DNA from: Saccharicrinis fermentans DSM 9555 = JCM 21142
Lineage (GTDB): Bacteria; Bacteroidota; Bacteroidia; Bacteroidales; Marinilabiliaceae
DNA length: 64,000 bases
Direction of reading: 5' to 3'
Assembly: GCF_000517085.1 (NCBI RefSeq)
Contig: NZ_KI912107.1
Span: 5,763,980 to 5,827,979, forward strand
This document shows, piece after piece, positions 17,059 to 55,169 of the stretch. Below the pieces are notes generated by a model. The model was not told the origin of the DNA and ran no database searches. It worked only from the letters and a program-made list of their open reading frames with translations. The position numbers and the translations under genes are program-made. How positions within the stretch are numbered: position 1 is the first letter of the stretch; every line of letters starts with the position of its first letter.

Positions 17059-18279
17059 ATGATGAAGCGAATTAAATCTATGGTATGCATGACCATGACC
17101 ATGACAATGGTGTTGGTGTCATGTGTGAATACCGAAAGTAGTGATACAAAGGATGAATCTTCGAGTGATGTGGAGGTCACAGATGCGCAGATGGATAAGT
17201 TGGGTATTACCCATCGAAAATATTTGAGCGCTGCTTCCAAAAGAGCATTGCAATGGCCCGACTTGGGTAATGAATGGTATATTGAATTTGAGGTGTACGA
17301 CTTGAAAGGTGATTTTGCTTATGAAGAGGGTGTTGTTAGACGTGATCCCAGTGCAATGATCAAAGAAAATGGAAAGTATTACGTTTGGTATACCAGAAGT
17401 ACAGGAAAAACGGATGGCTTTGGTGGTGATATTGAAAAAGATAAGGTGTTCCCCTGGGATAGATGTGATATTTGGTATGCGACCTCCGAAGATGGAATCA
17501 CATGGAAAGAAGAAGGCCCCGCTGTTTTAAGAGGTGAAAAAGGCGCTTATGATGACCGATCTGTTTTTACGGTGGAAATTATGAAGTGGGATGGAAAGTA
17601 CTATTTGTGTTACCAAACAGTCAAGTCTCCTTACAATGTGCGTGTTAAAAATCAAGTTGGCCTGGCTTGGGCTGATAGTCCGGATGGACCTTGGATCAAA
17701 TCTAAAGAGCCAATTCTTAGTCCTGCTGATAATGGTATCTGGGAGGGTGAAGAACAAAATAGATTTAAAGTGAAGAAGAAAGGTGATTTTGATAGTCATA
17801 AGGTTCACGACCCTTGTATTATTCCGTATAAAGGAAAATTCTATTTGTACTATAAAGGAGAGCAAATGGGTGAGGAGGTTACCTTTGGTGGACGTCAAAT
17901 ACGTCATGGTGTTGCGATTGCCGATAATCCGAAGGGACCGTATGTAAAGTCTCCCTATAACCCCATTAGTAATAGTGGACATGAAATATGTGTCTGGCCT
18001 TATAAAGGCGGTATTGCTTCTTTGATTACCACCGACGGGCCTGAGCGAAATACCATTCAATGGTCACCGGATGGTATTAACTTTGACATAAAAGCCGCCA
18101 TTAAGGGAGCACCACATGCCATAGGTCTGAATAGAACGGCAGATAATGAAAAGGATCCAACAGAAGTGCTGCGTTGGGGATTAACGCATGAATACAAAAC
18201 ATATGATTGGCAGTATATAAGAGGTTTCCGTTCCAGAAAAGTAAAAAATCATACCGCAATTGGTGAAAAAGGTGAATAA
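17059..18279 (+). CDS. GH117 alpha-1,3-(3,6-anhydro)-L-galactosidase, lipoprotein
   Basis: The 406-residue protein starts with a short hydrophobic leader ending in VSC, a lipoprotein signal (Cys near residue 22). The rest is a five-bladed propeller of the GH117 type. Recognisable blocks are SAASKRALQWPDLGNEW near 57-73, the GDFAYEEGVVRRDPSA block with a catalytic-site Asp, GAYDDRSVFT, SFDSHKVHDP-like DFDSHKVHDPC, and NPISNSGHE. GH117 enzymes cut the alpha-1,3 bond of neoagaro-oligosaccharides and release 3,6-anhydro-L-galactose. It would feed the anhydrogalactose operon at 51.8-58.5 kb. It is monocistronic: direct repeats lie before it and a strong terminator follows. The exact substrate, agarose or porphyran derived, is inference. 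Confidence 0.92.
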   Translation: MMKRIKSMVCMTMTMTMVLVSCVNTESSDTKDESSSDVEVTDAQMDKLGITHRKYLSAASKRALQWPDLGNEWYIEFEVYDLKGDFAYEEGVVRRDPSAMIKENGKYYVWYTRSTGKTDGFGGDIEKDKVFPWDRCDIWYATSEDGITWKEEGPAVLRGEKGAYDDRSVFTVEIMKWDGKYYLCYQTVKSPYNVRVKNQVGLAWADSPDGPWIKSKEPILSPADNGIWEGEEQNRFKVKKKGDFDSHKVHDPCIIPYKGKFYLYYKGEQMGEEVTFGGRQIRHGVAIADNPKGPYVKSPYNPISNSGHEICVWPYKGGIASLITTDGPERNTIQWSPDGINFDIKAAIKGAPHAIGLNRTADNEKDPTEVLRWGLTHEYKTYDWQYIRGFRSRKVKNHTAIGEKGE

Positions 18280-18579: not shown

Positions 18580-19359
18580 ATGAAACAAGCAAGAGTAATT
18601 ACCTTAGAGAGGAAAAATAGAGTGGGTTATATTGTAATAAACAGACCCAAGGCCAACTGTTACGAGATCAACTTTCACAAGCAACTGATAGCTTGTTTAG
18701 AAGAGGCCAATGCAGATGACGAAATAAAAGTAATTGTTGTAAAAAGTGCATTGGAAAAATTCTTTTGTGCAGGTGCTGATATAAAGGTTTTTGAAGCAAA
18801 TACAGTTGCTGAGAATAAAGTGATGGTGAAACATGCACAAATGGTAGCAGATAAATTATCAAACAGCCCTAAAGTAACTATAGCAGCCATTAATGGACAC
18901 GCTCTAGGTGGAGGATTAGAGTTGGCCATGGCTTGTGATTTTCGGCTGGCATCAGAGGGTAAATATTTTATGGGTTTACCAGAAATTAAATTGGGCTTAA
19001 TGCCCGGCAATGGAGGATCACAAAGGCTTATTCGGCTTATAGATAAAAGTAAAGCATTGGAATTACTCATGACAGGAGATCATATGGAGCCTCAGGAGGC
19101 ATATGAAATTGGACTGGTGAATCATATCTATGGTAGGGATGAATTTTTAGAGCAAGTGGAAGCGTATGCCGAAAAATTGGCGAGGGGTCCTCTGCAAGCC
19201 CTGATAGCAGTAAAGAAGGCTGTTAATAAGGGCATTGAAATGACCTTGGAAGAAGGACTGAAACTGGAAGGGGAATTGGTAGAACCTCTTTATGATACTG
19301 AAGATGCGAAGGAGGGAAGCCTCGCTTTTGTGGAGAAAAGGGTGCCCAAATTCAAATAA
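18580..19359 (+). CDS. Enoyl-CoA hydratase/isomerase family protein (crotonase fold)
   Basis: The 259-residue protein has the crotonase oxyanion-hole motif FFCAGADIKVF near 62-72 and GHALGGGLELAMACD near 107-121. Both catalytic Glu of true hydratases are present, in GGGLELA and in GLPEIKLGLMPGNGGSQRL. It is therefore likely a working enoyl-CoA hydratase or a related dehydratase acting on a CoA thioester in the cytosol. It is the first gene of the cluster, 49 bases before the aldehyde dehydrogenase gene. Together with two CoA-transferases further on it implies an acid-to-CoA route. The substrate is unknown; a short hydroxyacyl chain is one option. Confidence 0.9.
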   Translation: MKQARVITLERKNRVGYIVINRPKANCYEINFHKQLIACLEEANADDEIKVIVVKSALEKFFCAGADIKVFEANTVAENKVMVKHAQMVADKLSNSPKVTIAAINGHALGGGLELAMACDFRLASEGKYFMGLPEIKLGLMPGNGGSQRLIRLIDKSKALELLMTGDHMEPQEAYEIGLVNHIYGRDEFLEQVEAYAEKLARGPLQALIAVKKAVNKGIEMTLEEGLKLEGELVEPLYDTEDAKEGSLAFVEKRVPKFK

Positions 19360-19408
19360 TCATATACCTTAAAAGTGGATATCAACTGATGACTAAGATC
19401 TAAAAAAC

Positions 19409-20854
19409 ATGGAAATCAAAAACTACAACTGCTACATCAATGGCGAATGGATTGAAAAAAGTAAAGGGGATAAAATAGAGGTGGAGAATCCGGCCACCGG
19501 AGAAATTTTTGCCACCATACATGTAAGTACCATTGAAGAAACACAACATGCTTTAGAAACGGCAGAAAAAGCGCAGTTTGCCTGGCAAATGCTTCCTGCC
19601 TATGAACGTGCACAGTGGCTGTACAAGATATGTGATAAGCTGGAGGAGGAAAAGGACTTATTTGCCAAGCTATTGGTAATGGAGCAAGGTAAGACCCTGG
19701 CAGAAGCTTATGGGGAGGTTGCTGATACTATCAGGTATATTTCCTACGCTGCCGAAGCGGGTAGGAGAATCCAAGGGGCTATCTTTCCTTCGGATGTTGC
19801 CAATGAGCAACTGTCTATTCATAAAGTTCCGTATGGTGTAACTGTAGGCCTGATGGCCTTTAATTATCCACTGGCTTTGATTGGTCGAAAAATAGGACCT
19901 GCACTTATTACAGGTAATACTATGGTCATTAAACCTTCTGAGCTTACGCCGCTGACGGCTTCTGAATTTTGTAGAATTATTCATGAGATAGGGTTTCCCA
20001 AGGGCGTCATTAATATGGTTGTGGGATACGGACATACGGTGGGGTCTCATTTGGTGGAGAGTCCCATCACTAGGTTGGTTTCGATGACAGGAAGTACCAG
20101 GGCTGGACAGGCTATCTATAAAGCTGCTTCGCAAAATGTGGCCGGTTTAGTGCTTGAACTGGGCGGAAAAGCACCATTTATGGTGATGGATGATGCCGAA
20201 CTGGACAAAGCAGTGGACGCGGCTGTAATTTCTCGTTATGCTAATTGTGGCCAGGTATGCATATGTAACGAGATGGTTTTTGTGCATGAAAAAGTGGCTG
20301 ATGAGTTTACTGATAAATTGATTGCACGTATCAAAAAAATAAGGGTGGGAGATCCTATGACCGATGTGGATATGGGACCTAGTTTAAGTGCTAGTGCACT
20401 GGATAGGATGGACGGTATTGTAAAAGAGAATATAGCACAGGGAGCTGAGCTGGTGTTAGGTGGGAAAAGGCCTGAAGGAGCCTTGTTTGAAAGAGGAAAC
20501 TGGTATGAACCAACCGTTCTCACCAATGTTCAGCCGAACCATGCCACTATCCGAGAGGAAGTGTTTGGTCCTATATTGCCTATTGTTCGAGTTGCTGGAT
20601 TTGAAGAAGCTAGGGATCTACTAAACAGCAGAGAAGACAGCCTATCGGCTTATTTGTATACCCAAAATCATAAAAACATAATGCGCTCTATTCAGGAGTT
20701 TCAAATTGGAACCATCTTTATTAATAAGCAAATCGTTGGTTATATTCAAGGCTTTCATTCGGGGCATAAAAAGTCAGGAATAGGCGGCGAAGATGGTATT
20801 TATGGAATTGAACAATACCTGCAAAAGAGAACTGTTTATATGGATTACGAGTGA
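19409..20854 (+). CDS. Aldehyde dehydrogenase, AldA-like (first copy in window)
   Basis: This 481-residue NAD(P)-dependent dehydrogenase has the general-base Glu in LELGGKAPF and the nucleophile Cys in [10 protein letters not shown]. The N-terminal YINGEWIE and the end [16 protein letters not shown] match lactaldehyde/glycolaldehyde dehydrogenase AldA. A second, clearly related enzyme lies at 53709. Here it is flanked by enoyl-CoA hydratase and a GH2 gene. It probably oxidises a sugar-derived or lactaldehyde-like aldehyde to the acid that the CoA-transferases then activate (inference). An anhydrogalactose dehydrogenase role is an alternative, since GH117 lies upstream. Confidence 0.9.
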
Positions 20855-20980
20855 CCTTGTGGCTTGTGATGATAACGTTATACGAAGTGTTATACGGTGG
20901 GTAATTCGTCTGTAAAACTGCATTTTTTTACAGCAATCAAATTTAGAAAATATAACAAGTAATTATAAAATGATAATGCA

Positions 20981-23521
20981 ATGCGAAAGATAACAACTAT
21001 TACGAGATGCTTTCTGGTCGTATGGATGAGTATGTTTGTTTTAACAGCATGGTCTCAACCTAATACCACCTTTGCAAAGCAAGAAAGTAACCAACGGGTA
21101 CGTGATTTAAGCGGAATGAAATGGCGCTTTAAAATGATGCTGCCCGGCGAAGGTGTAAAAAAAGGATTACATAAAATCCCTTCTGAAGATATTGAAACCT
21201 TGGTCTGGAATAATGCCCGGGTTCCAGGGGATGTATATACTGATTTATGGAAAGCTGGCGTAATAGAGGATCCCTATTTTGGGCGTAATAGCGTTAAAGC
21301 TCAATGGGTTCAGCAATATGAATGGTGGTACTCGCTTCAATTTGATGTGCAGAAAATTCCACAAGATGAAATTGTTGAGATACTTTTTGAGGGGGTGGAC
21401 TATAGCTGTGAAGTATGGTTGAATGGTCACTATCTCGGCAAACATGAAGGTGTCTTCTCTAAGTTTTCATTTGATGTGACCAACTACCTTCGCACCCATC
21501 CTTGGGATGCCCAAAAAGGGAGGAATATGTTGATGGTAAAGTTAGATCCACCACCGCAAGTGAATGCTTTTGTGGCTGGTAAAAAAACGCCTTGGTTTGG
21601 TGATTATACCAGAGATCTTACTCCCATAGGTATTTGGCGTCCCGTTAAAATGGTGCGTACAGGAAAAGTGAGGTTTAAGGATGTGTATGCGCATCAGAAG
21701 CTAAATAAAAATGGTACGGCAAATGTAAACCTTGAGCTGGAAGTAGAAAATACCAGTGATCAAGCAAAAGAAATGACCTTTCAGGCTTCATTGAATGGTA
21801 AGAATTTTAAGATGAAGGAGATGAGGGTGGAGTTTACTCAGGTACTGAAGCCTGGTATTACGAAGGTTGAAAAAAACATTCATTTGGAAAAACCAGCGCT
21901 TTGGTGGCCTTGGGATTTGGGAGACCAAAATCTTTATGTGGCCAATGTTTCTATTCAAGAAGGAAATATTAACCATGATGTTCATGAAACGGTTTTTGGT
22001 ATTCGTGAAGTAACTTCTAAATGGAACCCTGGTTTTAAAAAAGACGTGGATGTTACTTTTCCTCGCTCAACTTATATCAATGGTAAATTCCATTTTATTC
22101 GTTCTGCATGTTGGGGTGGTCCGCCGGATATTTTCGTAGGACGTACTTCTCCTGCCGAATATAAAGAGCTTATTCGTATGGCCAAAGAAATGAATATGAA
22201 TAATATTCGTATTTTCGGATGGCATCCGCCAGAAATTCCAGAGTTTTATCAATACTGTGATGAGATGGGAATGACCGTTTGGCAGGATATGATTCCGCTG
22301 GGAACAGGTAATATTCCTACCGAAGAAGAAAATTTAGCTGAGATCTTTAATGAAGGTGTTAAAGTAGTGAAGGAACGCCGTAATCATCCGTCGTTGATTA
22401 TGATGGAAGGAGGAGAAGAAATGTTGTTCCGTACACGTGATCCGCAATTTGGAAGGCAGTTCCTGGAACGATTGGGCGACTCCCTTCAGGCCTATGTAGA
22501 TCTTCCCTATGTGCCAGATTCTCCAATGACTGACCCTGTGGCGCAAGAGGCTGGTTTTAAACCTAAAGAAGCTGTTCACGCCTTGCGTTATTTCTATGAG
22601 ATGGGACGCTGGTTACACGAAGATTGGTATCAGACACATTGTGATGGCTATCCTATTGTGCCTGAGTTTGCGATTACCTCTATTCCTTCGGTGGAAAGCC
22701 TCAAGAAATTTATCCCGGAAAATGAAATGTGGCCTCCAGGATTGAGTTGGGGACATCATTGGGCAGACTTAACGCGCCTGCGTATGCAAAATTGGGATGT
22801 TTTTGGAAGCGAGATGAAAGGCTCACTGGAAGAGTTTGTGAATGCAACACAAGATGCTCAAGGTATTATCTTTCAAAATGGGATTGAACATTTTCGTCGT
22901 CATAAACCCAGCCTAAGTGGTATTGCTCTTTGTCACTATATTACCTATTGTCCGGATATGAAATGGGGCATCGTGGATAATTATCAAAAACCTAAAAATT
23001 CTTATTATTTTGTTCAGAAGGCTTATCAGCCCTTATTGGTCAACTTTGAATTTAAAAAACGTCGTTGGAATAACAAAGAGCCTTTTGTTGGGAATATATG
23101 GGTAATCAATGATTTATACCAGGAGTTTAAAGACTGTACAGTAAAATTTCAAATGAGAGATGATGCGGGAAAAGTGCTTTCGGAAAAGAAATTTGATCTT
23201 GCAGTGATACAAGAGAATAGCGCAAAATTATTTTTCCCTGTTCAAGAAAAAGTATTGAAATCGGTGAAAGAGAAATTCTTTGTTTATTTGGAGTTGACCA
23301 ACAAAAAAGGAGAGGTAATTTCTAAAAATGATTACTTCTTTTTAATTGGTGACCAAGAAAAAGCCAGCGCTCGATTCAAAGAATGGAAAACAGAAAGGGT
23401 TAATCAGGAGAATATTCACGGCCGTTATGGTTCTTACTATCATTTCTTTGAAGAGTTTACTGAACAAAATGGAAAAAAATTAGAAAGCGAAACTCAAACT
23501 CCACGAGCTATTGGGTTTTAA
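20981..23521 (+). CDS. Secreted GH2 family protein, beta-mannosidase-like, copy a
   Basis: The 846-residue protein has a signal peptide (about 1-25, ending AWSQ). A jelly-roll domain follows (about 45-225), then Ig-like domains, a TIM barrel (about 360-660) and a C-terminal Ig-like domain. The likely nucleophile is E562 in PEFAITSIPS, matching the EFG.QS type of beta-mannosidases. The acid/base region reads MEGGEEM (475-481) where beta-mannosidases have GNNE, so E480 is the likely acid and the preceding Asn is Glu. That Asn usually holds the sugar 2-OH, so the glycone may be unusual. The protein is very similar to the GH2 at 28955 through its whole length. It is periplasmic or exported, with unknown substrate. 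Confidence 0.85.
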   Translation: MRKITTITRCFLVVWMSMFVLTAWSQPNTTFAKQESNQRVRDLSGMKWRFKMMLPGEGVKKGLHKIPSEDIETLVWNNARVPGDVYTDLWKAGVIEDPYFGRNSVKAQWVQQYEWWYSLQFDVQKIPQDEIVEILFEGVDYSCEVWLNGHYLGKHEGVFSKFSFDVTNYLRTHPWDAQKGRNMLMVKLDPPPQVNAFVAGKKTPWFGDYTRDLTPIGIWRPVKMVRTGKVRFKDVYAHQKLNKNGTANVNLELEVENTSDQAKEMTFQASLNGKNFKMKEMRVEFTQVLKPGITKVEKNIHLEKPALWWPWDLGDQNLYVANVSIQEGNINHDVHETVFGIREVTSKWNPGFKKDVDVTFPRSTYINGKFHFIRSACWGGPPDIFVGRTSPAEYKELIRMAKEMNMNNIRIFGWHPPEIPEFYQYCDEMGMTVWQDMIPLGTGNIPTEEENLAEIFNEGVKVVKERRNHPSLIMMEGGEEMLFRTRDPQFGRQFLERLGDSLQAYVDLPYVPDSPMTDPVAQEAGFKPKEAVHALRYFYEMGRWLHEDWYQTHCDGYPIVPEFAITSIPSVESLKKFIPENEMWPPGLSWGHHWADLTRLRMQNWDVFGSEMKGSLEEFVNATQDAQGIIFQNGIEHFRRHKPSLSGIALCHYITYCPDMKWGIVDNYQKPKNSYYFVQKAYQPLLVNFEFKKRRWNNKEPFVGNIWVINDLYQEFKDCTVKFQMRDDAGKVLSEKKFDLAVIQENSAKLFFPVQEKVLKSVKEKFFVYLELTNKKGEVISKNDYFFLIGDQEKASARFKEWKTERVNQENIHGRYGSYYHFFEEFTEQNGKKLESETQTPRAIGF

Positions 23522-23539
23522 TTCGGTGAAGTTTTATTG

Positions 23540-23564
23540 GATGGATGCTTTGGGAGCATCCATC
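23540..23564 (+). terminator. Intercistronic hairpin after GH2a
   Basis: GATGGATGCT (23540-23549) pairs perfectly with AGCATCCATC (23555-23564) over a 5-base loop. No T run follows, so it is more likely an RNA-stabilising or attenuating hairpin than a full terminator. Confidence 0.5.
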
Positions 23565-23601
23565 ACTTATTCCCTTATTAAACGAGAAATATTAGATTCA
23601 T

Positions 23602-24756
23602 ATGAATAATATAAAACTTAAAGGAATTACCTGGAATCATAGTCGCGGTTTTACGTCTATTGTGGCATGTGCACAGCGTTTTTCTGAATTGAATCCAGGT
23701 GTGGAAATCTCCTGGGAGAAGCGCTCTTTACAGGCTTTTGCCGATGAACCCATAGATCAGCTTGCAGAGCGGTTCGATTTTTTAATTATCGATCATCCAT
23801 GGACGGGTTTTGCTGCTCGTAGTAAGGTGATCATACCATTGAGCGATTATTTGCCGAGTAGTTATATGGAAGATCAGGCAGCCAATGCTGTAGGTAAATC
23901 ATTTGAGAGCTACCATTTTAGTGGTAAACAATGGGCTTTACCTATTGATGCGGCTACTCCTGTGGCAGCTAGTCGACCTGACTTATTTGAAAGTGAAGGA
24001 TGGAAATTACCTAAAACATGGGATGCGTTGGTTGAGCTGTCCAAAACAGGTAAGGTTGCCATTCCTGGTATACCACAGGATATCTTAATGAGCTTTTATA
24101 TGCTGTGTTCTACATTGGGTGAGGATGTTTGTGTGTGTAAAGATTGCGTGGTGTCGGATAATGTGGGTATTAAAGCTTTGCAGATGCTCAGAGATTTGGG
24201 TGAGAATATAAAAGCTGAAAATTATGACTTCAACCCAATAAAAGTATATGAAAAAATGACATTAAGCGATGATTATCTTTATAGTCCTTTTGCTTATGGA
24301 TATACGAACTATTCTCGTAGAGGATATGCTCGTAAATTGTTGAAGTTTCATGATATGGTAGCGCTGGATGGGCAGAAATTGATTACAACATTGGGTGGTA
24401 CCGGCTTGGCTGTTTCTGCAAATTGTAAACATCGTGAGATGGCTGTTAAATTTGCTGAATATGCCGGTTCCTCGGATATTCAGAGAGGAATCTTTTTTAC
24501 CAATGGAGGACAGCCAGGGCATAGGGCGGCCTGGTTGGATCAACAAAATAATGCGGATACCATGGATTTTTTTGTAGATACATTGCCGGCCTTGGATCGC
24601 TCTTTTCTTCGTCCTCGTTATTATGGACATATGTACTTTCAGGATAGAGCAGGGGCTCCTATTCGTGAGTATATGATGAAGGGAGGTGATGAAACAAAGC
24701 TTTTAGCTGGATTAAATGAATTATATTATCAGTCCTTGGAATTAGATAAGTCCTGA
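23602..24756 (+). CDS. Solute-binding-protein family 1 homologue without signal peptide
   Basis: The 384-residue protein has the two-lobed fold signs of family 1 (sugar-type) solute-binding proteins: ITWNHSRGFTSIVACAQRFSELNPG at the N-terminus, GWKLPKTWDALVELSK in the middle, and TNGGQPGHRAAW near the end. It begins MNNIKLKGITW, with no signal peptide, lipobox or membrane segment, so it should stay in the cytosol. No ABC permease or ATPase gene is nearby. A Cys cluster (C177, C179, C182, with C169 nearby) could hold a metal or a disulfide. It lies between the GH2 and CoA-transferase genes and may bind a pathway intermediate or act as an enzyme or chaperone (inference). A mis-set start is unlikely, as the upstream DNA holds a hairpin and no leader frame. 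Confidence 0.75.
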   Translation: MNNIKLKGITWNHSRGFTSIVACAQRFSELNPGVEISWEKRSLQAFADEPIDQLAERFDFLIIDHPWTGFAARSKVIIPLSDYLPSSYMEDQAANAVGKSFESYHFSGKQWALPIDAATPVAASRPDLFESEGWKLPKTWDALVELSKTGKVAIPGIPQDILMSFYMLCSTLGEDVCVCKDCVVSDNVGIKALQMLRDLGENIKAENYDFNPIKVYEKMTLSDDYLYSPFAYGYTNYSRRGYARKLLKFHDMVALDGQKLITTLGGTGLAVSANCKHREMAVKFAEYAGSSDIQRGIFFTNGGQPGHRAAWLDQQNNADTMDFFVDTLPALDRSFLRPRYYGHMYFQDRAGAPIREYMMKGGDETKLLAGLNELYYQSLELDKS

Positions 24757-24923
24757 ACGGCATAGCATGGTCAGACAAATACAGTGAAGGGACCGTGTTT
24801 GGTTGATGGGACTGTTTATGTTTTATAAGTAATGTACGAACAATGATGAAGGCAGATATAATGCGTATGTGATACTTGATCGTTTGCGTATAATGAGTTT
24901 AATATGTAGATGAATTTTTGCTT

Positions 24924-24949
24924 GCGATAGGTCTTGATTGACCTGTCGC
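24924..24949 (+). terminator. Hairpin between the binding-protein and CoA-transferase genes
   Basis: GCGATAGGTC (24924-24933) pairs with GACCTGTCGC (24940-24949) with one G-T pair and a 6-base loop, followed by ATCTTTACTTT. It is a moderate terminator candidate, directly before hairpin repeat B copy 2. Confidence 0.5.
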
Positions 24950-24960
24950 ATCTTTACTTT

Positions 24961-25017
24961 AATCCGAATGATGCATTAGAACTTCTTAATGGATTTTCTA
25001 ATGCATTTTTCGGGTTT
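24961..25017 (+). repeat. Dispersed hairpin repeat B, copy 2 (fullest copy)
   Basis: CCGAATGATGCATTAGAA (24964-24981) pairs with TTCTAATGCATTTTTCGG (24996-25013), 16 of 18 positions matching, around a 14-base loop. It ends about 22 bases before the CoA-transferase ATG, so it forms the gene's leader. A longer reading of the gene would translate through this repeat, which is why I chose the later start. Confidence 0.75.
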
Positions 25018-25038
25018 AATCTACGCACACTAAAATAT

Positions 25039-26184
25039 ATGAATTTACCATTAAAAGGAATAACAGTATTAGAGTTTGCTCAATTTATGGCGGGACCGTC
25101 AGCTGGTTTAAAGATGGCGGATCTGGGAGCAAGAGTCATTAAAATAGAACGCCCAGGAACAGGTGAGGCCGGTAGGCAAATAGCCATAAAAAATTTGTTT
25201 ATTGATGAAAGTAGTATGGTTTTTCATACAGCCAATAGAAATAAACAGTCCTATGCAGCTAACTTGAAAGATCCGGCCGATCTGGATAAGGTGAAAAAAC
25301 TTATTGCAAAGGCTGATGTGATGACCCATAACTTTCGTCCTGGCGTGATGGATAAAATTGGTTTAGATTATGATACAGTAGCTGCGATTAATCCAAAAAT
25401 AGTGTATGGTGTGGTTTCGGGATATGGAGCCAAAGGACCATGGGCTAAAAAACCGGGCCAGGATTTGTTAATTCAATCCTTATCCGGCTTAGTTCATTTG
25501 AGTGGAAATGCCGATGATAATCCAACTCCAAGTGGCTTGGCAACATCAGATATTTTTACTGGTGTACACTTGGTACAGGGTATTTTGGCCGCACTTATTC
25601 AACGTAATAAAACAGGAAAAGGGGCCTTGGTTGAGGTCAGTTTGTTAGAGTCAACCTTAGATATTCAATTTGAGGTGATTACCACTTATTTAAACGATGG
25701 TAATAAATTGCCACAACGTGCTAAGAAGGGTAATGCACATGCTTATCTGGATGCTCCCTATGGGATCTATAAAACCAAAGATAGTTATATTGCAATTGCA
25801 CTTATTTCGTTGGATGAATTGACAAAAGTAATGGGTGTTGAATTGCCCGAAGCATATGCAGATAAGGCAACCTGGTTTGTGAAACGTGATGAAATTATGG
25901 CTTTTCTTTCGCCGTATTTCGAAAAAGAAACGAATGCTCATTGGCTGGGTATTTTTGAAGGACTCGACTTGAGTTGTTCTGATATATATACTTATCGCGA
26001 TTTATTTAATCATGAAGGATATCGCGTGTTGAAAATGGATCAGGAAGTGGAGACTTCGGATGGTATTACCATGAGAACCACGCGTTGTCCCATTCGAATA
26101 GATGGACAACGAAGCTTTCATCGAAAATCGGCTCCTAAACCTGGGGAAGATAATGTTTTAATAGAAAAAGAATTTGGTATTTAA
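25039..26184 (+). CDS. CaiB/BaiF (family III) CoA-transferase, copy 1
   Basis: I use the ATG at 25039 (MNLPLKGITVLEFAQFMAGP), which gives 381 residues; earlier in-frame codons lie in a repeat. Family III features are the N-terminal VLEFAQFMAGPSAGLKMADLGARVIKIE block, the THNFRPGVMDKIGLDY block, and the catalytic Asp in the SGLATSDIFTG region. These enzymes move CoA between carboxylic acids without net energy cost, via an aspartyl-CoA thioester, usually as interlocked dimers. Frc, CaiB and mesaconyl or succinyl-lactate type enzymes are relatives. The next gene is a close paralogue, so the pair could form a heterodimer or treat two acids in series (inference). Confidence 0.9.
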   Translation: MNLPLKGITVLEFAQFMAGPSAGLKMADLGARVIKIERPGTGEAGRQIAIKNLFIDESSMVFHTANRNKQSYAANLKDPADLDKVKKLIAKADVMTHNFRPGVMDKIGLDYDTVAAINPKIVYGVVSGYGAKGPWAKKPGQDLLIQSLSGLVHLSGNADDNPTPSGLATSDIFTGVHLVQGILAALIQRNKTGKGALVEVSLLESTLDIQFEVITTYLNDGNKLPQRAKKGNAHAYLDAPYGIYKTKDSYIAIALISLDELTKVMGVELPEAYADKATWFVKRDEIMAFLSPYFEKETNAHWLGIFEGLDLSCSDIYTYRDLFNHEGYRVLKMDQEVETSDGITMRTTRCPIRIDGQRSFHRKSAPKPGEDNVLIEKEFGI

Positions 26185-26257
26185 CCTACTATAGGTCGTT
26201 TATATTCTTAGCTCCCTATGTGGATAAGAATTACGTGCCGGTATTGACATCAAAAAA

Positions 26258-27415
26258 ATGAATAATAAAATAAATAAACCATTGGAAGGGATATTGGTAA
26301 TTGATTTTAGTCAATATCTTTCAGCACCTTCGGCCAGTTTGAGATTGGCGGATTTAGGTGCTTGCGTTATTAAAATAGAGCAGCCTAATACAGGAGATCG
26401 TTGTCGAAGTCTTTATTTTTCAAACTTGGTGATGAATGATGAATCGTCCATGTTTCATGCAATTAATAGAAATAAACTGAGTTATCAGGCTGATATGAAA
26501 AATCAGACGGAGAGGGAAAAGGTTTATAAGTTAATTCAACAGGCTGATGTTTTGATTCATAACTTTCGTCCCGGCGTAGTGGAACGTTTAGGTATCGATT
26601 ATAATACCATTACTTCCATTCAGCCTGACATTGTGTATGCTGAGTTATCTGGTTATGGCAAAGAAGGAGTCTGGAAAGATAAACCAGGATTGGATTTATT
26701 GATACAGTCGATTTCGGGTTTGACGCAGCTCAATGGCAATGAGGGTGATGGACCTGTACCCATTGGTTTAGGGGTGGTTGATATATTGTCTGGAGCCCAC
26801 CTGTGTCAGGGAATATTGGCTTGTTTATTCCGTAAAACTTCGGGAGGACAAGGAGGACGCGTCGAAGTAAGTATGTTGGAGTCGGCATTGGAATACCAAT
26901 TTGAATCGGTAACCGCTTATTTTTGTGATGGAGGTGAGCCTACGGTACGTCCCAAGACAAATTCTGCGCATGCATATTTGGGCGCTCCATATGGGGTTTA
27001 TCCTACTAATAATGGTTTTATTGCACTGGCTATGGGACAAATTCCGGTATTGGGAGAACTGTTGGGATGTCCGTCGTTGAAGAAGTATCCCCAGCCAGCT
27101 AGTTGGTTTACGCAACGGGATGAGATTAAGGAGATTCTGAGTGATCATCTAAAAACTAAAAATACACAAGACTGGCTGGACGTGCTTGAGCCTGCTGACA
27201 TATGGTGTGCCGAAGTGATGGACTGGAAAACACTATTTGATACTGAAGCTTTTAAAATGTTAAACATGATTCAAGAGGTGACTATGCGCGATGGGTATCG
27301 CTTTAAAACAACACGTTGTCCTATTCAAATAAATGGAGAGTGGTTAACTTCTGAGTGTGGAACCCCAAAACTGGGTGAGAATACCGAAGAGATTAAAAAG
27401 AAGTTTTCTTTGTAA
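26258..27415 (+). CDS. CaiB/BaiF (family III) CoA-transferase, copy 2
   Basis: The 385-residue protein parallels copy 1 along its whole length: VIDFSQYLSAPSASLRLADLGACVIKIE, HNFRPGVVERLGIDY, the GLGVVDILSG segment with the expected catalytic Asp, and TTRCPIQINGEW near the end. It starts 73 bases after copy 1. Divergence between the two is clear but all core motifs are kept, so both are probably active. Tandem family III pairs occur in pathways such as carnitine, oxalate or methylated-acid metabolism; nothing here identifies the acid. The gene is followed by a half copy of repeat B and then a structured region before iclR. Confidence 0.9.
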   Translation: MNNKINKPLEGILVIDFSQYLSAPSASLRLADLGACVIKIEQPNTGDRCRSLYFSNLVMNDESSMFHAINRNKLSYQADMKNQTEREKVYKLIQQADVLIHNFRPGVVERLGIDYNTITSIQPDIVYAELSGYGKEGVWKDKPGLDLLIQSISGLTQLNGNEGDGPVPIGLGVVDILSGAHLCQGILACLFRKTSGGQGGRVEVSMLESALEYQFESVTAYFCDGGEPTVRPKTNSAHAYLGAPYGVYPTNNGFIALAMGQIPVLGELLGCPSLKKYPQPASWFTQRDEIKEILSDHLKTKNTQDWLDVLEPADIWCAEVMDWKTLFDTEAFKMLNMIQEVTMRDGYRFKTTRCPIQINGEWLTSECGTPKLGENTEEIKKKFSL

Positions 27416-27509
27416 GAATGAGTCGTGTTTACGCGTACGATTGGCTAATCTGTTTTATGGATGGTTGAACACCTTTCGATTAGTAGCTTGATTATAAAAC
27501 TCCTTGAAA

Positions 27510-27527
27510 CCGAATGATGCATTAGAA
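27510..27527 (+). repeat. Dispersed hairpin repeat B, half copy
   Basis: CCGAATGATGCATTAGAA at 27510-27527 is identical to the left arm of the copy at 24964, but no right arm follows. It is a truncated relic or a recombination joint. The surrounding stretch 27416-27839 shows no gene I can support. Confidence 0.6.
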
Positions 27528-27839
27528 AATATATTACAATTAATATTGTTGCCAATCAAGCTAGCTAACTTGTTTTAAGTTATTATAGGTGGCTGTGCCT
27601 CGTCTTAACATGGTCTTGATTGATTGCATTCTTAATTTTTATGATGAAGTCTAATGTATTATTCGGAATTAATAAAATATCTGATATCTCTTATCGTTTT
27701 GCTTGGAAGGGTCAAAAAGTTCAGCCTTGGCATATAAACGTACGATGCCTTTTTATGGAATGTATTGTTGATATGGGTGATATTCAGGTTGTTATGGCCT
27801 ATCGCTAGTCGGTTCTAGAATTTCGCTTACGGTCTTACT

Positions 27840-27996
27840 TAGTGGCTGCAAGAAAACGACTGTTTTTTCTGTCTTTGATAAGAAAGCCTCAAAGACAAGG
27901 CTTTCGATATTTTTGAAACCAAGGAGTTTACTGATTGTAAATAACTGTTTCAAAAATGAGAATAACGCAGTATTTGGAGTTTTCTTGCAAAGACTA
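27840..27996 (-). repeat. Nested inverted repeats downstream of iclR
   Basis: The outer arms TGCAAGAAAAC (27847-27857) and GTTTTCTTGCA (27979-27989) match perfectly and extend with three mismatches to 27840-27857 / 27979-27996. Inside, ATTTTTGAAAC (27909-27919) matches GTTTCAAAAAT (27947-27957). A third pair, GTCTTTG (27871-27877) with CAAAGAC (27890-27896), is mutually exclusive with AAAGCCT (27883-27889) and AGGCTTT (27898-27904). The right outer arm begins at the iclR stop. It could be a folded 3' UTR, a terminator, or a small non-coding mobile unit. Confidence 0.6.
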
Positions 27997-28755
27997 CTTA
28001 ATAATTCCCAAAGATTCTCTTATTTTATGCACTGTTTTTAAAATTTCATTTTCAATTTCTTCGGCAGTCACTAGCTTTCGCATTTGTGATGTTAAAGTAG
28101 AAACAGCCAATACAGCAATCATCTCTTGATGCATATTGAAGATAGGTGCTGCAAAATCTGTTATTCCTTCTGTTAGCATACTTTTGTTACAAATACAAGA
28201 ATGTTTTTTTATATCCTGTAGCTCATTCAGTAGGGCTTTTTTTTCAGATGCCTTCATGGCTTGGTAATCATCACATAATGTGAGGATTTGTTTTCTATTT
28301 TCTTCCTTTAGGTGTGCCAGAGTTATTTTCCCGGATACGGTTTTTGCTAAGGGGAATAAGCTGCCTATCTCTACCGATAACGAAACCGGCGTTTGGCTTT
28401 GTACTTGTGCTATGATCATTAATTTATTGTGATGCAAAACAGCTAAATGAACCGATTGGTTTATGCAGTATGCCAAGTTCTGCATATGCATTTCAGATGC
28501 TTTTACCATAATGTCCACCGGTGAATGGTGGTGTGCTAAATGGAATAGACGAAGTGTTAGACTGAATTTTCCCGAAGCAGGATCTTTTACTATATAACCT
28601 CTTTTTTCAAGGTTAATAAGCATGCGGTATATTTCGTTGGGCTTGCGGCTGATACCGTTTGCTATTTCCAATTGTGATTGTGGTATCGATTGTGAAGATA
28701 AAAATTCTAGTATGTCTAATCCTTTATCTAAGGCAGGAGCATCATATTTTGTCAT
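27994..28755 (-). CDS. IclR family transcriptional regulator
   Basis: I place the start at the ATG at 28755 (MTKYDAPALDKGLDILEFLS), which gives 253 residues, the usual size; a 24-codon extension upstream has no family likeness. The N-terminal winged helix includes SQSQLEIANGISRKPNEIYRML-like residues and EKRGYIVKDPASGKFSLTLRL. The C-terminal IclR effector domain follows, with FAAPIFNMHQEMIAVLAVS near the end. IclR proteins often control acid, aromatic or sugar-acid catabolism and bind the pathway acid. It lies in the middle of the CoA cluster, divergent from the second GH2 gene and convergent with the CoA-transferases, so it likely regulates both (inference). Confidence 0.9.
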   Translation of the reverse strand: MTKYDAPALDKGLDILEFLSSQSIPQSQLEIANGISRKPNEIYRMLINLEKRGYIVKDPASGKFSLTLRLFHLAHHHSPVDIMVKASEMHMQNLAYCINQSVHLAVLHHNKLMIIAQVQSQTPVSLSVEIGSLFPLAKTVSGKITLAHLKEENRKQILTLCDDYQAMKASEKKALLNELQDIKKHSCICNKSMLTEGITDFAAPIFNMHQEMIAVLAVSTLTSQMRKLVTAEEIENEILKTVHKIRESLGIIK

Positions 28756-28903
28756 ATCCGTGTGTTTATTTTCATGGGTAAAATTATTAAAATAATGCGA
28801 AATCCATTGTTGTCTATGTAAAGTCAAGACGACTAATGAGAGCAGACCTTAATATGAGGACGTTTTTCGTTTATTTTACCCCAGTTTAAATATAACAAAT
28901 AAG

Positions 28904-28915
28904 TTCATATTTGAA
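28904..28915. promoter_or_regulatory. Palindrome between iclR and GH2b, possible IclR operator
   Basis: TTCATATTTGAA is a perfect palindrome of TTCA and TGAA half-sites over a four-base spacer. It lies 149 bases before the iclR start and 40 before the GH2b start, as an autoregulator site would. A similar word is at 18526. Low sequence complexity keeps confidence down. Confidence 0.3.
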
Positions 28916-28954
28916 TAATGAATCATGAAGCGGAATGAATTTTAAAATTTAAGA

Positions 28955-31465
28955 ATGAAAAAGATTGTATTTTTTTTATGGATTATATTCCCGGTATTGT
29001 TGTGGGCACAGCCTGGAACAATTAATTCGCACACTGAGAATAGTCAGGTGGTGCGTGATTTAGGAGGGCATCATTGGAAAATGAAGATGATGTTACCGGG
29101 GCAAGGTGTAAAAGAAGGTTTGCATGAACTTCCTCCTGCCGATATTGAAACCAACTTTTGGAATCCAGCCTTTGTTCCTGGGGATGTATATACTGATTTA
29201 TGGAAGTGTGGTGTTATTGATGATCCTTATTTTGGAAGAAACAGCGTGCGCGCTCAATGGGTTCAGCAATATGAGTGGTGGTATGCCTACCAGTTTAATG
29301 TGACCGAGGATGTTACTGATCAGGTGGTTCGGCTTGTTTTTGAAGGGGTGGATTATAGTTGTGATGTGTGGTTGAACGGAGTGCATTTAGGAAGTCATAA
29401 GGGAGCTTTTTCTTCTTTTTCGTTTGATATTAACGACGTTTTGCGGGTTTCAAAAAAGAACATCGATAGTAAAAATATGTTGATGATCAAGTTGGATCCT
29501 CCCCCAAAAGTCAATGCAAAGGTGGCTGGGTTGAAAACGCCATGGTTTGGAGACTACTGGCGCGATTTGATTCCCTTTGGAATAAGTAGGACGATTAAAA
29601 TGGTTTCCACAGGTAAGGTTCGTATTATGGATGTTTATGCCAACACCAGTTTAAACAAGGATGGTAGTGCTGACGTACGTATGGAAGTGGAGTTGGAAAA
29701 TACGACAGACCAACCCAAAGAGATGACTATTGTTGCTTCTATGGAGGGTAAGAATTTTGAATCCAAGTCCTTGATGGAGAAGATGACTCAGTGGGTAAAA
29801 CCAGGAAAGCATATAGTTACGAAAACTATTCATGTGAAGAAACCCTTGCTTTGGTGGCCCTGGGATCTGGGAAAACCGAATTTGTATACGGCCAAGGTTT
29901 CTTTAAAAGAAGGTGCCGTAAATCATGATGCACAAGAGATAACTTTTGGGATACGCGAAGTAAGTTCTAAGTGGAATCCAGGATTCAAAAGAGGGGTTGA
30001 CGTAAGCTTTCCTCGTTCTACTTATATTAATGGTAAGTTTCATTTTATTCGGTCAGCCTGCTGGGGAGGTCCACCAGATATCTTTGTGGGAAGAACCAAT
30101 CCCGATGAATATAAAACATTGATTCGTTTGGCCAAAGAAGCCAATCTGAACAATATCCGTATTTTTGGATGGCATCCACCCGAAATTCCCGAGTTTTATG
30201 AATATTGTAATGAGATGGGTATGACGGTATGGCAAGATATGATTCCGTTAGGTACGGGCAATATTCCACAGGATAGAAAAGGAATTAACCGGATCATGCA
30301 AGAGGCGGCCGCAGTGATTAAGGAGCGACGTAATCATCCTTCTTTGATCATGATGGAAGGAGGAGAGGAAATGTTGTTGCGTACCCAAGATGCTCATTTT
30401 GGTAGAGCTTTTTTGGAGGAGCTGGGCGATACATTACAACGATATGCTAAACTGCCTTATGTGCCGGATTCACCACTTACCTGTGAGGTGTCTATAGAGG
30501 CAGGTTTTAAACCTAAAGAAGCTAAGCATGCCTTGGCCTACTTTTATGGTATGGGAAGATGGTTGATGGAAGACTGGTTTAGAACACTGGATTATCCTAT
30601 TATACCTGAATTTGCCATTACTTCGGTACCTAATGTGGAAAGTCTGAAGAAGTTTATCCCGGAAAATGAAATGTGGCCTCCTGGATTAAGCTGGGGACAC
30701 CATTGGGCCGACTTAGATAGATTACGCATGCAAAATTGGGATAGCTTTGGTGATGAGAAATTGGGTTCATTGCAAGAGTTTGTTGATGCTACACAAGATG
30801 CGCAGGGAATGATATTTCAATATGGGGTTGAGTACTTGAGAAGACATAAACCTAATTTAAGTGGTATTTCTCTGTGCCATTGGATCACCTATTGGCCCGA
30901 TATGAAGTGGGGTATCATAGATAATTATCAGCAGCCAAAGCGTTCTTATGAATTTGTGAAGCGAGCTTATCAGCCATTGTTGGTAAATTTGAATTTTGAA
31001 AAGAGACGTTGGCATAGAGAGGAGCCTTTTAAAGGAGAACTTTGGGTAGTGAATGATCTATATCAGTCCTTCGGAAAAAGTACCGTTGAAATGGAAGTAA
31101 GAGATGATAAAGGGAAGCGAATCTTTTCATCGACATTTAATATGGATAAGGTAGATGAGAATAGTGCCCAAAAGTATTTTGATATTGAGGCGGATGTGTT
31201 GTCTAAAGTAAATCAGCAATTTACGATTCATCTGAATATGAAAGATAAGGCCGGAAATTCTATTTCGTCCAATGAATATTTATTTTTGATTGGTGACCAA
31301 AAAGAAGCTTCGGCTCAGTTTAAAAAGATGGGTGATGCTATGCGTAAGCGCAATGCCGAATTTACCTATGGTAATTATTTTAGATTCTTTGATGAAATGG
31401 GGCGTAAGAATGGAAAAGATTACCAGAGTGATACTGAGCACCCTAAGGCGAGCGAATATGAGTAA
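28955..31465 (+). CDS. Secreted GH2 family protein, beta-mannosidase-like, copy b
   Basis: The 836-residue protein has a signal peptide (about 1-19, ending LLWAQ) and the same domains as the GH2 at 20981. Long blocks are identical or nearly so, for example the WGGPPDIFVGR and PLGTGNIP segments. The altered acid/base motif MEGGEEM and the nucleophile motif PEFAITSVPN are both kept. That two paralogues keep the same unusual motif argues for function, not decay. The gene is alone in its unit, divergent from iclR and ended by a bidirectional terminator. Having two copies may extend the substrate range or reflect recent duplication within the cluster. Confidence 0.85.
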   Translation: MKKIVFFLWIIFPVLLWAQPGTINSHTENSQVVRDLGGHHWKMKMMLPGQGVKEGLHELPPADIETNFWNPAFVPGDVYTDLWKCGVIDDPYFGRNSVRAQWVQQYEWWYAYQFNVTEDVTDQVVRLVFEGVDYSCDVWLNGVHLGSHKGAFSSFSFDINDVLRVSKKNIDSKNMLMIKLDPPPKVNAKVAGLKTPWFGDYWRDLIPFGISRTIKMVSTGKVRIMDVYANTSLNKDGSADVRMEVELENTTDQPKEMTIVASMEGKNFESKSLMEKMTQWVKPGKHIVTKTIHVKKPLLWWPWDLGKPNLYTAKVSLKEGAVNHDAQEITFGIREVSSKWNPGFKRGVDVSFPRSTYINGKFHFIRSACWGGPPDIFVGRTNPDEYKTLIRLAKEANLNNIRIFGWHPPEIPEFYEYCNEMGMTVWQDMIPLGTGNIPQDRKGINRIMQEAAAVIKERRNHPSLIMMEGGEEMLLRTQDAHFGRAFLEELGDTLQRYAKLPYVPDSPLTCEVSIEAGFKPKEAKHALAYFYGMGRWLMEDWFRTLDYPIIPEFAITSVPNVESLKKFIPENEMWPPGLSWGHHWADLDRLRMQNWDSFGDEKLGSLQEFVDATQDAQGMIFQYGVEYLRRHKPNLSGISLCHWITYWPDMKWGIIDNYQQPKRSYEFVKRAYQPLLVNLNFEKRRWHREEPFKGELWVVNDLYQSFGKSTVEMEVRDDKGKRIFSSTFNMDKVDENSAQKYFDIEADVLSKVNQQFTIHLNMKDKAGNSISSNEYLFLIGDQKEASAQFKKMGDAMRKRNAEFTYGNYFRFFDEMGRKNGKDYQSDTEHPKASEYE

Positions 31466-52788: not shown

Positions 52789-52820
52789 AAATTATAATGA
52801 TCGATTAATCAAAATATAAA

Positions 52821-53591
52821 ATGAGTGTATTAGATAAATTTAGCGTAGAAGGTAAAGTAGCCTTGGTAACAGGATGTAAAAGAGGTATTGGCATGGGTAT
52901 GGCAATAGCTTTGGCTGAGGCAGGTGCCGATATTATTGGCGTTAGCGCATCTTTAGAAAAAGAGGGTAGTGCCGTTGAGAAGGCGGTAAAAGCAGTGGGA
53001 CGTAAGTTCAAAGCTTATACCTGTGATTTTAGTAATAGAAAGGCGCTTTATGCTTTTATAGAAGAAGTGAAAGCCGAAAATCCTGTGATTGATATATTAA
53101 TTAATAATGCAGGAACGATACTTCGTGCTCCAGCTGCTGAGCATCCCGATGAAATGTGGGATAAGGTGATTGAAGTAAACCAGAATGCACAATTTATCCT
53201 TACTCGAGAAATAGGTAAGGAAATGGTGGCACGTGGTGCCGGTAAAATAGTGTTTACAGCTTCGTTACTTACATTTCAGGGGGGTATTACTGTTCCTGGG
53301 TATGCGGCTAGCAAAGGAGCCATAGGCCAAATGACAATGGCTTTTGCCAACGAGTGGGCTTCTAAAGGAGTTAATGTAAATGCAATAGCTCCAGGTTATA
53401 TTGATACGGATAATACTGAAGCATTGCGCAAGGATCCTGTTCGTTCAGAACAAATTTTGTCACGTATTCCTGCCGGAAGATGGGGTACGCCAGAAGACTT
53501 TGGTGGACCGGTCGTGTTCTTATGTTCAGAAGCTGGTGCTTATATGCAAGGATCTATTATGCTGGTAGATGGTGGTTGGATGGGAAGATAA
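52821..53591 (+). CDS. SDR oxidoreductase, KduD-like; candidate 2,5-diketo-3-deoxygalactonate reductase
   Basis: The 256-residue short-chain dehydrogenase has the cofactor motif TGCKRGIGMG near 17-26, NNAG near 93-96, a catalytic Ser in FTASLL and YAASK. The end, IMLVDGGWMGR, and PAGRWGTPEDFGGPVVFL are typical of KduD/gluconate 5-dehydrogenase enzymes, which act on C5 keto groups of 3-deoxy sugar acids. It lies 32 bases after the zinc dehydrogenase gene. Paired with it, it would invert C5 of L-KDGal to give D-KDG. The family call is firm, the substrate is inferred from context. Confidence 0.85.
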   Translation: MSVLDKFSVEGKVALVTGCKRGIGMGMAIALAEAGADIIGVSASLEKEGSAVEKAVKAVGRKFKAYTCDFSNRKALYAFIEEVKAENPVIDILINNAGTILRAPAAEHPDEMWDKVIEVNQNAQFILTREIGKEMVARGAGKIVFTASLLTFQGGITVPGYAASKGAIGQMTMAFANEWASKGVNVNAIAPGYIDTDNTEALRKDPVRSEQILSRIPAGRWGTPEDFGGPVVFLCSEAGAYMQGSIMLVDGGWMGR

Positions 53592-55151: not shown

Positions 55152-55169
55152 TATATAAATTATGTATTG

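Follow-up and report, generated by a model that had tools for sequence, protein, structure and literature searches.

A solute-binding-fold protein and CoA-transferase gene module in Saccharicrinis fermentans and its possible part in CoA-dependent dehydration of sugar acids

The gene block and its enzymes

We analyzed a stretch of 64,000 nucleotides (hereafter, the window) from the bacteroidote Saccharicrinis fermentans DSM 9555 (contig NZ_KI912107.1, positions 5,763,980 to 5,827,979), and in it a gene block at 18580-31465 that contains a cytosolic solute-binding-fold protein (SBP) and two family III CoA-transferases (CaiB1 and CaiB2). The sequence-only reading of this DNA had placed here an enoyl-CoA hydratase (ECH), an aldehyde dehydrogenase (ALDH), a secreted glycosidase of family GH2 (GH2a), the SBP, the two CaiB proteins, an IclR-family regulator and a second secreted GH2 (GH2b); Pfam searches and inspection of the open reading frames (ORFs) of the window found all of these genes in place, with the corresponding domains (Table 1). 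On the + strand the order is ECH, ALDH, GH2a, SBP, CaiB1 and CaiB2, with intergenic gaps of 49 to 282 bp; the IclR gene lies downstream of CaiB2 and is divergent from GH2b. The start of CaiB1 is more likely at 25039 (381 aa, at the beginning of the Pfam domain) than at the TTG at 24934, and that of the IclR gene is likewise more probably at the ATG at 28752. CaiB1 and CaiB2 are the only CoA_transf_3 matches in the 5.98 Mb genome. No SusC/SusD pair lies inside the block, the nearest being at 41835-46901. A promoter search for the IclR regulator of the window gave one shared 11-base word and AT-rich palindromes in the two promoters, from which no conclusion on an operator was drawn.

The enzymes of the block keep the residues expected of their families. 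Both CaiB proteins belong to family III (326 and 307 bits with PF02515, cut-off 23.3), and an Asp that we take to occupy the position of FRC Asp169 is present in 79/79 CaiB1 (Asp171) and 80/80 CaiB2 (Asp175) sequences. None of the NCBIfam models shown reaches its cut-off: the best is of the succinate-glutarate type (221 of 750 bits), the mesaconate model scores 176 of 700, and formyl-CoA/oxalate transferase models are among the matches under cut-off of both proteins. A racemase role for one of the two was considered and rejected: where alpha-methylacyl-CoA racemase presumably has its catalytic His beside the Asp (the GHD motif), CaiB1 has Gln (79/79), and CaiB2 has Gln (71) or Leu (9 of 80). 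In the ECH, E114 and E135, presumably the two catalytic Glu of crotonases (rat 144 and 164), are each kept in 41/42 relatives. MaoC, the hydratase found at many related loci (PF01575, 78 bits), keeps the Asp (33/33) and the His (29/33) of what we take to be the catalytic D-x4-H. Judged by sequence, the CaiB proteins would be functional as transferases, and the hydratases as hydratases, on thioesters. C284 and E250 of the ALDH are kept in 39/39.

This ALDH passes the NCBIfam model PRK10090 (508 bits, cut-off 500) and stays below the cut-off of the D-glyceraldehyde dehydrogenase model (416 bits, cut-off 760). Its best solved relatives are 3k2w (481 bits) and 6j75 (468 bits), with AldA at about 400 bits; this tells against conversion of lactaldehyde to lactyl-CoA, which had been offered as a simple option, and we set lactyl-CoA aside as the principal reading because a crotonase would find no 3-oxygen on it to eliminate. 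GH2a has its best PDB match in the beta-mannosidase 5n6u (224 bits) and contains MEGGE and PEFA as candidate catalytic motifs.

The module is recognised by its SBP, its signature protein. The AlphaFold model of the SBP has a pLDDT of 93.3, and Foldseek places the protein with ABC sugar-binding proteins (best match MalE3, 6dtq, TM 0.83; SmoF, 7ofy, TM 0.82). It has the same fold as these proteins, but differs from them in lacking a signal peptide and in being linked to CoA-transferases. The first strand lies at residues 4-11 of the model, and it begins within about 10 residues of the likely start in the window protein and 18 Bacteroidota relatives inspected by eye; in the same set no signal peptide was seen by eye, no signal-peptide program having been run. 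The frames at loci L025 and L038 are longer, with an internal methionine. No ABC permease or ATPase was noticed beside the SBP among the identified Bacteroidota neighbour clusters, not every neighbour having been identified; in Shinella, a nearby ABC operon carries an SBP gene of its own. Across 28 sequences that share 58-77% identity with the window protein, 114 columns are invariant, many of them charged, and several invariant Arg, His and Asp would suit binding of an acidic sugar.

Table 1. Features of the module block and of the anhydrogalactose-type cluster, in positions of the window
Feature	Position	Strand	Supporting match
GH43-like lipoprotein, possible module neighbour	17059..18279	+	PF04616, 62 bits
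ECH, enoyl-CoA hydratase/crotonase (hydratase of arm A)	18580..19359	+	PF00378 (ECH_1), 212 bits
ALDH, aldehyde dehydrogenase	19409..20854	+	PF00171 (Aldedh), 500 bits
GH2a, secreted GH2 glycosidase	20981..23521	+	Pfam GH2 domains and Mannosidase_ig
SBP, cytosolic solute-binding-fold protein, module signature	23602..24756	+	PF01547/PF13416 (SBP_bac_1/SBP_bac_8), 56/52 bits
CaiB1, family III CoA-transferase	25039..26184	+	PF02515 (CoA_transf_3), 326 bits
CaiB2, family III CoA-transferase	26258..27415	+	PF02515 (CoA_transf_3), 307 bits
IclR-family regulator	27994..28752	-	PF01614, 94 bits; PF09339, 32 bits
GH2b, second secreted GH2	28955..31465	+	Pfam GH2 domains
Zn-ADH and SDR of the anhydrogalactose cluster	51775..53591	+	PF00107/PF08240 and PF00106
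Anhydrogalactose ALDH and 3,6-anhydro-L-galactonate cycloisomerase	53709..56331	+	PDB 6j75, 731 bits; PDB 5xd7, 639 bits

A conserved core with exchangeable arms

Searches of three phyla located the SBP in 19 of 395 Bacteroidota, its own phylum (own genome counted), in 18 of 398 Pseudomonadota (counting the centre genome, Hirschia, and G397, a known carrier) and in 3 of 149 Acidobacteriota (counting the centre genome, of the Bryobacteraceae). A scan of genome contigs gave at least 593 candidate stretches, of which at least 501 were confirmed and the best 80 kept, a set biased to close kin since only top-ranked stretches were retained. The 120 loci fetched comprise these 80, 18 from the Bacteroidota sample, 20 from Pseudomonadota (all matches of the phylum except two already among the best 80) and 2 from Acidobacteriota; at least three loci are counted twice (L022/L041, L023/L064, L024/L086), as the contigs of each pair agree in length and range.

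Counting as linked a CaiB gene on the same strand and within 400 bp, the SBP is linked to CaiB in 114/120 loci from three phyla (17/18 Bacteroidota, 79/80 best loci, 16/20 Pseudomonadota, 2/2 Acidobacteriota), and a CaiB gene occurs somewhere in the locus in 17/18, 80/80, 20/20 and 2/2, respectively. The misses are L035, which has no CaiB, L040 and L153, with distances of 533 and 578 bp, and L161, L166 and L167, with about 6.4 kb. By this linkage the SBP is a partner of the transferases. A hydratase, ECH or MaoC, accompanies them in 111/120 loci (17/18, 72/80, 20/20 and 2/2; blastp E 1e-8 and 40% coverage, with some matches down to 31% identity), and three of the eight misses among the best 80 (L048, L051, L111) sit on cut-off stretches. 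Among rhizobial loci, at L151, L152, L154, L155, L156, L158 and L160, a MaoC relative (39-41%) lies directly beside CaiB. An IclR gene is present in 51/80 best loci. No thiolase or acyl-CoA dehydrogenase was found among the recurrent neighbour clusters that were identified, which do not include every neighbour. The proposal that a CoA-linked gene set is tied here to polysaccharide breakdown had been made from one genome; neighbourhoods elsewhere, where absence of the set would have spoken against it, bear it out, with SBP-CaiB conserved in three phyla and far beyond its own genome. In Pseudomonadota, a more distant cluster at L161, L166 and L167 combines ECH, CaiB, a short-chain dehydrogenase/reductase (SDR), an ABC ATPase, IclR and SBP, perhaps a third kind of module.

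Around the SBP-CaiB-CaiB core, the best 80 loci sort into 36 with an arm A (ECH, no second SBP), 42 with an arm B (a second SBP) and 2 with neither. Arm A is the kind seen in the window: ECH and ALDH adjoin in 35/36 loci, a GH2 of either window kind is present in 23/36, and IclR also in 23/36. Arm B carries a Gfo/Idh oxidoreductase (41/42), MaoC (33/42) and IclR (27/42), together with permeases of the RhaT type (28/42) or the FucP type (12/42); relatives of the alcohol dehydrogenase (ADH) and of the SDR of the window occur in 13/42 (67-79%) and 14/42 (78-90%) of the loci, and a SusC/SusD pair lies directly upstream in some of them, e.g. L098 and L113. With monosaccharide permeases and exo-glycosidases in the B arms, the suggestion that the substrate may be a non-sugar aglycone finds no support.

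Six loci (L069, L072, L076, L079, L080, L086) join an ECH cassette (46-51% identity) and a B module on one core; L108, whose ECH match is only 30%, was not counted among them. A maximum-likelihood tree built from 81 SBPs requires 5 changes of the arm A label, and branches with good support force at least 4 of these; for the B label, with mixed loci kept apart, the count is 8. The window protein belongs to a group of 15 that is itself well supported, 7 of them A and 8 B. From the two-arm loci and the changes of the arm A label it follows that the core was retained, with more than one exchange of the hydratase and dehydrogenase arms around it.

Some loci carry further genes. A second, divergent MaoC (39-42% identity) lies between CaiB1 and CaiB2 at L074, L077, L088, L108 and L118, and a second protein of the MR_MLE family (22-25% identity to the cycloisomerase) stands beside the arm A loci L075, L101, L105, L110 and L115. 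A secreted-looking DUF6786 protein (L104:7825-9021 and 8 other loci) was found in 9/80, 8 of arm A and 1 of arm B. Relatives of the GH43-like lipoprotein that precedes the block (74-80% identity) occur in 4/80 best loci (L056, L059, L061, L067).

Galactan genes and candidate sugar acids

To the right of the block lies a gene for a protein with the porphyranase domains BPA_C and Porphyrn_cat_1, which may be read as a GH86 enzyme, along with an HTCS-type regulator, SusC/SusD, a third GH2 and an anhydrogalactose-type cluster. The MR_MLE protein of this cluster matches the solved 3,6-anhydro-alpha-L-galactonate cycloisomerase, and around it are genes for an ALDH, an ADH, an SDR, an aldose epimerase and RhaT. 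By the pathway roles given in the part of PMC5943477 consulted, the Zn-ADH and the SDR are probably the 2-keto-3-deoxy-L-galactonate 5-dehydrogenase and the diketo-acid reductase. Because of the porphyranase domains, the SusC/SusD pair, the GH2 enzymes and this 3,6-anhydro-L-galactose pathway cluster, the window looks like part of a red-algal galactan degrader.

Other features of this region were noted. The HTCS regulator (37723-41382, - strand) stops inside its own receiver domain; a DDE_5 transposase (36427-37734, + strand) follows, and beyond it lies an AraC-type HTH_18 piece (35717-36154, - strand); an insertion element seems to have disrupted the regulator beside SusC/SusD. A phage tail collar domain is present in the protein encoded at 32535-33119, between a porphyranase gene and the gene for a protein that has a secretion tail. 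The genes at 59732-62672, for an altronate/galactarate dehydratase of the UxaA type and a member of the mannitol dehydrogenase family, stand next to a LacI regulator and may represent a tagaturonate-type route adjoining the anhydrogalactose genes.

In a hand-picked set of 51 genomes, a cycloisomerase with at least 52% identity to that of the window was present in 28/28 arm A genomes (three of which also have MaoC), in 9/9 marine arm B genomes and in 0/14 other arm B genomes. As all 28 arm A genomes of this set carry it, arm A belongs to anhydrogalactose users. Its acid may be one that such organisms meet, candidates being a substituted anhydro-L-galactonate or L-galactonate. L-galactose was rejected as the substrate of all arm A modules, since GH29 (at least 60% identity to that of Persicobacter) was found in only 6/25 arm A genomes without MaoC; it is possible for these six, which include our genome. 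In marine genomes with MaoC the same GH29 occurs in 9/12 (Fisher p 0.005, with the kinship of the genomes ignored). D-galactose, processed by a CoA-linked version of the De Ley-Doudoroff route, is disfavoured for our genome, which has GalT and no match to DGOK; across 13 genomes searched, DGOK was found in 5, and GalT was not seen in 2 (G182 and G395). Our genome also has no arm B MaoC.

Among the 42 B loci there are genes for GH106 (9), GH29 (6), a propeller lactonase (6), GH78 (5) and a sulfatase of one cluster (3). On pPP8 of Persicobacter (L120), a single stretch holds a sulfatase, GH29, RhaT, Gfo/Idh, a propeller lactonase, SBP-CaiB-CaiB-SBP2, MaoC, and an ADH and an SDR related to those for anhydrogalactose; its gene table, which is incomplete, lists no dehydratase of the MR_MLE or IlvD type. 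In a Flavobacterium-like genus (g10), eight sampled genomes have a B module without ECH; one genome of the genus, G154, holds the contig of the two-arm locus L086 (Flavobacterium sp. 7A). At L025, from this genus, the B module stands beside GH28, a lactonase (best NCBIfam model L-fucono-1,5-lactonase, 268 of 400 bits), an SDR, an ADH and an FAA_hydrolase (best model 2,4-didehydro-3-deoxy-L-rhamnonate hydrolase, 378 bits, cut-off 500); L032 adds GH88. The likeliest acids of arm B appear to be L-galactonate in marine genomes (from porphyran) and L-fuconate or L-rhamnonate elsewhere.

L-fucose and L-rhamnose pathways usually have an aldonate dehydratase, which we sought in genus g10. Six of its eight arm B genomes carry three MR_MLE-family matches each. 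From three of these six we fetched the two MR_MLE ORFs per genome that were not enolase by length and score; 5/6 were classified, and their best models, all under cut-off, were MenC or DgcA/dipeptide-epimerase. The IlvD of two of the genomes passes the cut-off of the valine-pathway ilvD model. On this partial classification, no MR_MLE or IlvD aldonate dehydratase was recognised beside the L-fucose/L-rhamnose-type gene set of the three genomes, UxaA-type enzymes not having been searched. This partial pathway hole would support CoA-linked dehydration. Extending the argument to every B genome was tried and fails, since several have MR_MLE or IlvD matches.

A possible thioester route and its alternatives

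We consider it possible, at somewhat less than even confidence, that the block represents arm A in an exchangeable module whose task is CoA-dependent dehydration of sugar acids. Secreted GH2 enzymes would release a sugar from red-algal galactan, and a permease would import it. The ALDH is proposed to oxidize the sugar aldehyde to an aldonic acid, onto which CaiB1 and CaiB2, judging from their family and conserved Asp, would move CoA. The thioester would acidify the C2 hydrogen of the aldonyl-CoA, and the crotonase (arm A) or MaoC (arm B), run backwards, would eliminate the C3 oxygen to give an enol and from it a 2-keto-3-deoxy acid; CaiB could then pass the CoA to the next acid, making CoA turnover catalytic. 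In the weakest of these steps, the cytosolic SBP may capture the sugar acid and deliver it to CaiB1 and CaiB2. The order aldehyde, acid, CoA thioester, hydratase had been suggested before; we keep it, as the reactions we infer rather than as an observation. Support comes from the SBP-CaiB linkage with a hydratase in three phyla, the kept catalytic residues of hydratases and transferases, the partial pathway hole, the gene sets at L025 and L120, the swapping of arms and the lack of thiolase or acyl-CoA dehydrogenase among the recurrent clusters identified.

Aldonate dehydration is a textbook step of metal-dependent or Fe-S enzymes. The thioester chemistry would achieve the same as enolase-superfamily or IlvD/Edd dehydratases achieve with their metal ions or Fe-S clusters. 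By a Fischer assignment derived by hand, L-galactonate, L-fuconate and L-rhamnonate would be 3R acids, of the sense handled by MaoC, and D-galactonate and similar acids 3S, of the crotonase sense. A broader claim is more tentative, and we hold it with clear reserve: that a widespread, unrecognised branch of sugar catabolism activates aldonates with CoA and dehydrates them with fatty-acid-type hydratases stereochemically matched to the sugar (MaoC for the 3R acids, crotonase for 3S acids), an SBP having been recruited into the cytosol as the lasting partner of the CoA-transferases.

Parts of the proposed route have parallels in known pathways. Those of succinyl-CoA:mesaconate, itaconate or L-malate CoA-transferases act on C4-C5 dicarboxylates and include a C-C lyase. 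They share with the module a family III CoA-transferase and a hydratase acting on a hydroxyacid thioester, but have no solute-binding-fold protein and no sugar transporter. The L-fucose and L-rhamnose diketo-hydrolase pathways normally use an MR_MLE or IlvD/Edd aldonate dehydratase. The lactonase, SDR and FAA_hydrolase beside the L025 B module resemble theirs, whereas partial classification of the ORFs of the three genomes brought no such dehydratase to light. In the 3,6-anhydro-L-galactose pathway, as far as described in the consulted portions of PMC9706016 and PMC5943477, a dehydrogenase, a cycloisomerase, an L-KDGal 5-dehydrogenase and a DDGal reductase act in turn: as in our proposal, a galactan sugar becomes an acid, its 3-oxygen is eliminated to give a 2-keto-3-deoxy acid, and two dehydrogenases follow, but the elimination falls to an enolase-superfamily cycloisomerase without CoA, where the module would put CoA-transferases and a crotonase or MaoC.

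The nearest precedent would be the deoxyribonyl-CoA of Klebsiella michiganensis, where deoxyribonate is proposed, from mutant fitness, to be activated with CoA and then oxidized and thiolysed (PMC6365646, in the passages seen). There too a sugar acid is CoA-activated and processed by fatty-acid-type enzymes, from a cluster with a CoA-transferase; a CoA-synthetase, a hydroxyacyl-CoA dehydrogenase and a thiolase cleave a 2-deoxy acid, however, and these passages report no hydratase step, solute-binding-fold partner or CaiB pair. That no named pathway was known with this gene set, as had been stated, agrees with the open-access literature, although CoA activation of a sugar acid had thus already been proposed. 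We found in that literature (subscription papers and preprints lay outside its scope) no description of the gene set or of thioester dehydration of sugar acids, including the parts consulted of PMC9007349, PMC5613140, PMC5698469, PMC9706016, PMC10033563, PMC6581685, PMC5943477, PMC3454389 and PMC6365646; no open-access paper treating CaiB together with polysaccharide utilization loci; and, in the passages retrieved for Zobellia, Flammeovirga and Paraglaciecola, no mention of a sugar step linked to CoA. Each enzyme family is a known one; it is their combination, and the thioester dehydration of sugar acids, that we did not find described.

Several observations weigh against CoA-dependent dehydration. 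The role of the SBP is only proposed, and at L035 (genome G286) an SBP relative (52% identity) adjoins IclR with neither CaiB nor hydratase within 20 kb. In arm A, the cycloisomerase of all 28 genomes means that plain anhydrogalactose leaves no hole to fill, and the GalT and DGOK result of our own genome disfavours the D-galactose route there. By the hand-derived stereochemistry, anhydro-L-galactonate and L-galactonate would be 3R, the wrong sense for a standard crotonase, which counts against anhydro-L-galactonate as substrate unless the enzyme is unusual. In genus g10, the missing dehydratase could be the strong fourth MR_MLE protein (179 bits) of G021, or the second IlvD/Edd protein that G222, G316 and G202 each have; other arm B genomes are rich in MR_MLE matches (9 in G033, 13 in G403, 55 in G396). 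In rhizobial loci the CaiB-SBP pair has in its vicinity an ABC operon that includes MR_MLE, mutarotase, Gfo/Idh, MaoC and SDR genes. There (Sinorhizobium medicae, Shinella) MR_MLE, and in Shinella additionally a gene annotated as L-fuconate dehydratase, have been retained beside Gfo/Idh and MaoC, so that at these loci the module does not just stand in for a dehydratase: the loci may deal with two acids, or the hydratase may have another task.

One alternative is C-C cleavage, in which a crotonase like feruloyl-CoA hydratase-lyase would split a hydroxyacyl-CoA into an acyl-CoA and an aldehyde, the ALDH acting last. In ech-vdh gene pairs, hydratase-lyase and dehydrogenase are neighbours. The adjoining ECH and ALDH of 35/36 arm A loci would agree with this, as would the ALDH score with the D-glyceraldehyde dehydrogenase model; but arm B, with MaoC and mostly no such ALDH, does not fit, and arm A would be left without an enzyme to make the starting acid, so that we judge it unlikely. 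We are similarly doubtful that the module handles a non-sugar substituent, such as a pyruvate ketal, a methyl group (via formaldehyde and formate) or an ester-linked acid, instead of the sugar chain. Genes for P450, ferredoxin and ferredoxin reductase, a sugar-demethylase set recognised by eye with no family search, occur in 7 loci (3 A and 4 B), esterase genes (PF00756) in 9, and the formyl-CoA/oxalate models among the CaiB matches point the same way. Where rhamnosidases and FucP accompany the B module (Pedobacter, Hymenobacter and others), however, the loci are not galactan loci, and the lactonase, diketo-acid hydrolase and sugar dehydrogenases of the B clusters indicate sugar acids.

The racemase positions of CaiB1 and CaiB2 bear on another proposal, that the SBP is a real enzyme or a regulator and that the CaiB proteins carry out something other than CoA transfer, e.g. 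acyl-CoA epimerisation; strong conservation of the SBP, with its many charged invariant residues, would favour it, but the racemase-type His is replaced in both proteins, and we consider it improbable. Diketo-acid hydrolase pathways finish at pyruvate and lactate. The CoA enzymes might accordingly serve a small product of sugar breakdown made by another route (lactate, glycerate or glycolate), as the ALDH match to PRK10090 would allow; the CoA-transferase of the Klebsiella deoxyribonate cluster is itself proposed to act on glyceryl-CoA (PMC6365646, same passages). We give this little credence, for a lactate or glycerate sink would need no hydratase beside a sugar-binding-fold protein, and the ALDH has solved relatives closer than AldA. 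Finally, loci differ in whether and where they carry IclR and GH2 genes, as they would if the block were a chance assembly of unrelated units; adjacency of SBP and CaiB in three phyla refutes this for that pair, and although it could hold for the second GH2, as an account of the block it is very improbable.

If CoA-dependent dehydration of sugar acids is the correct reading, at least three phyla would possess a CoA-thioester alternative for this step, tied to red-algal galactans and to pectin-type side chains, and it would help to explain how Bacteroidota use L-galactose, L-rhamnose and L-fucose. New acyl-CoA metabolites would be there to look for, and a transporter-type binding protein would be at work inside the cell beside an enzyme. 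The SBP family, with several hundred genes that now mostly go by the name extracellular solute-binding protein, would then have a function that can be tested.

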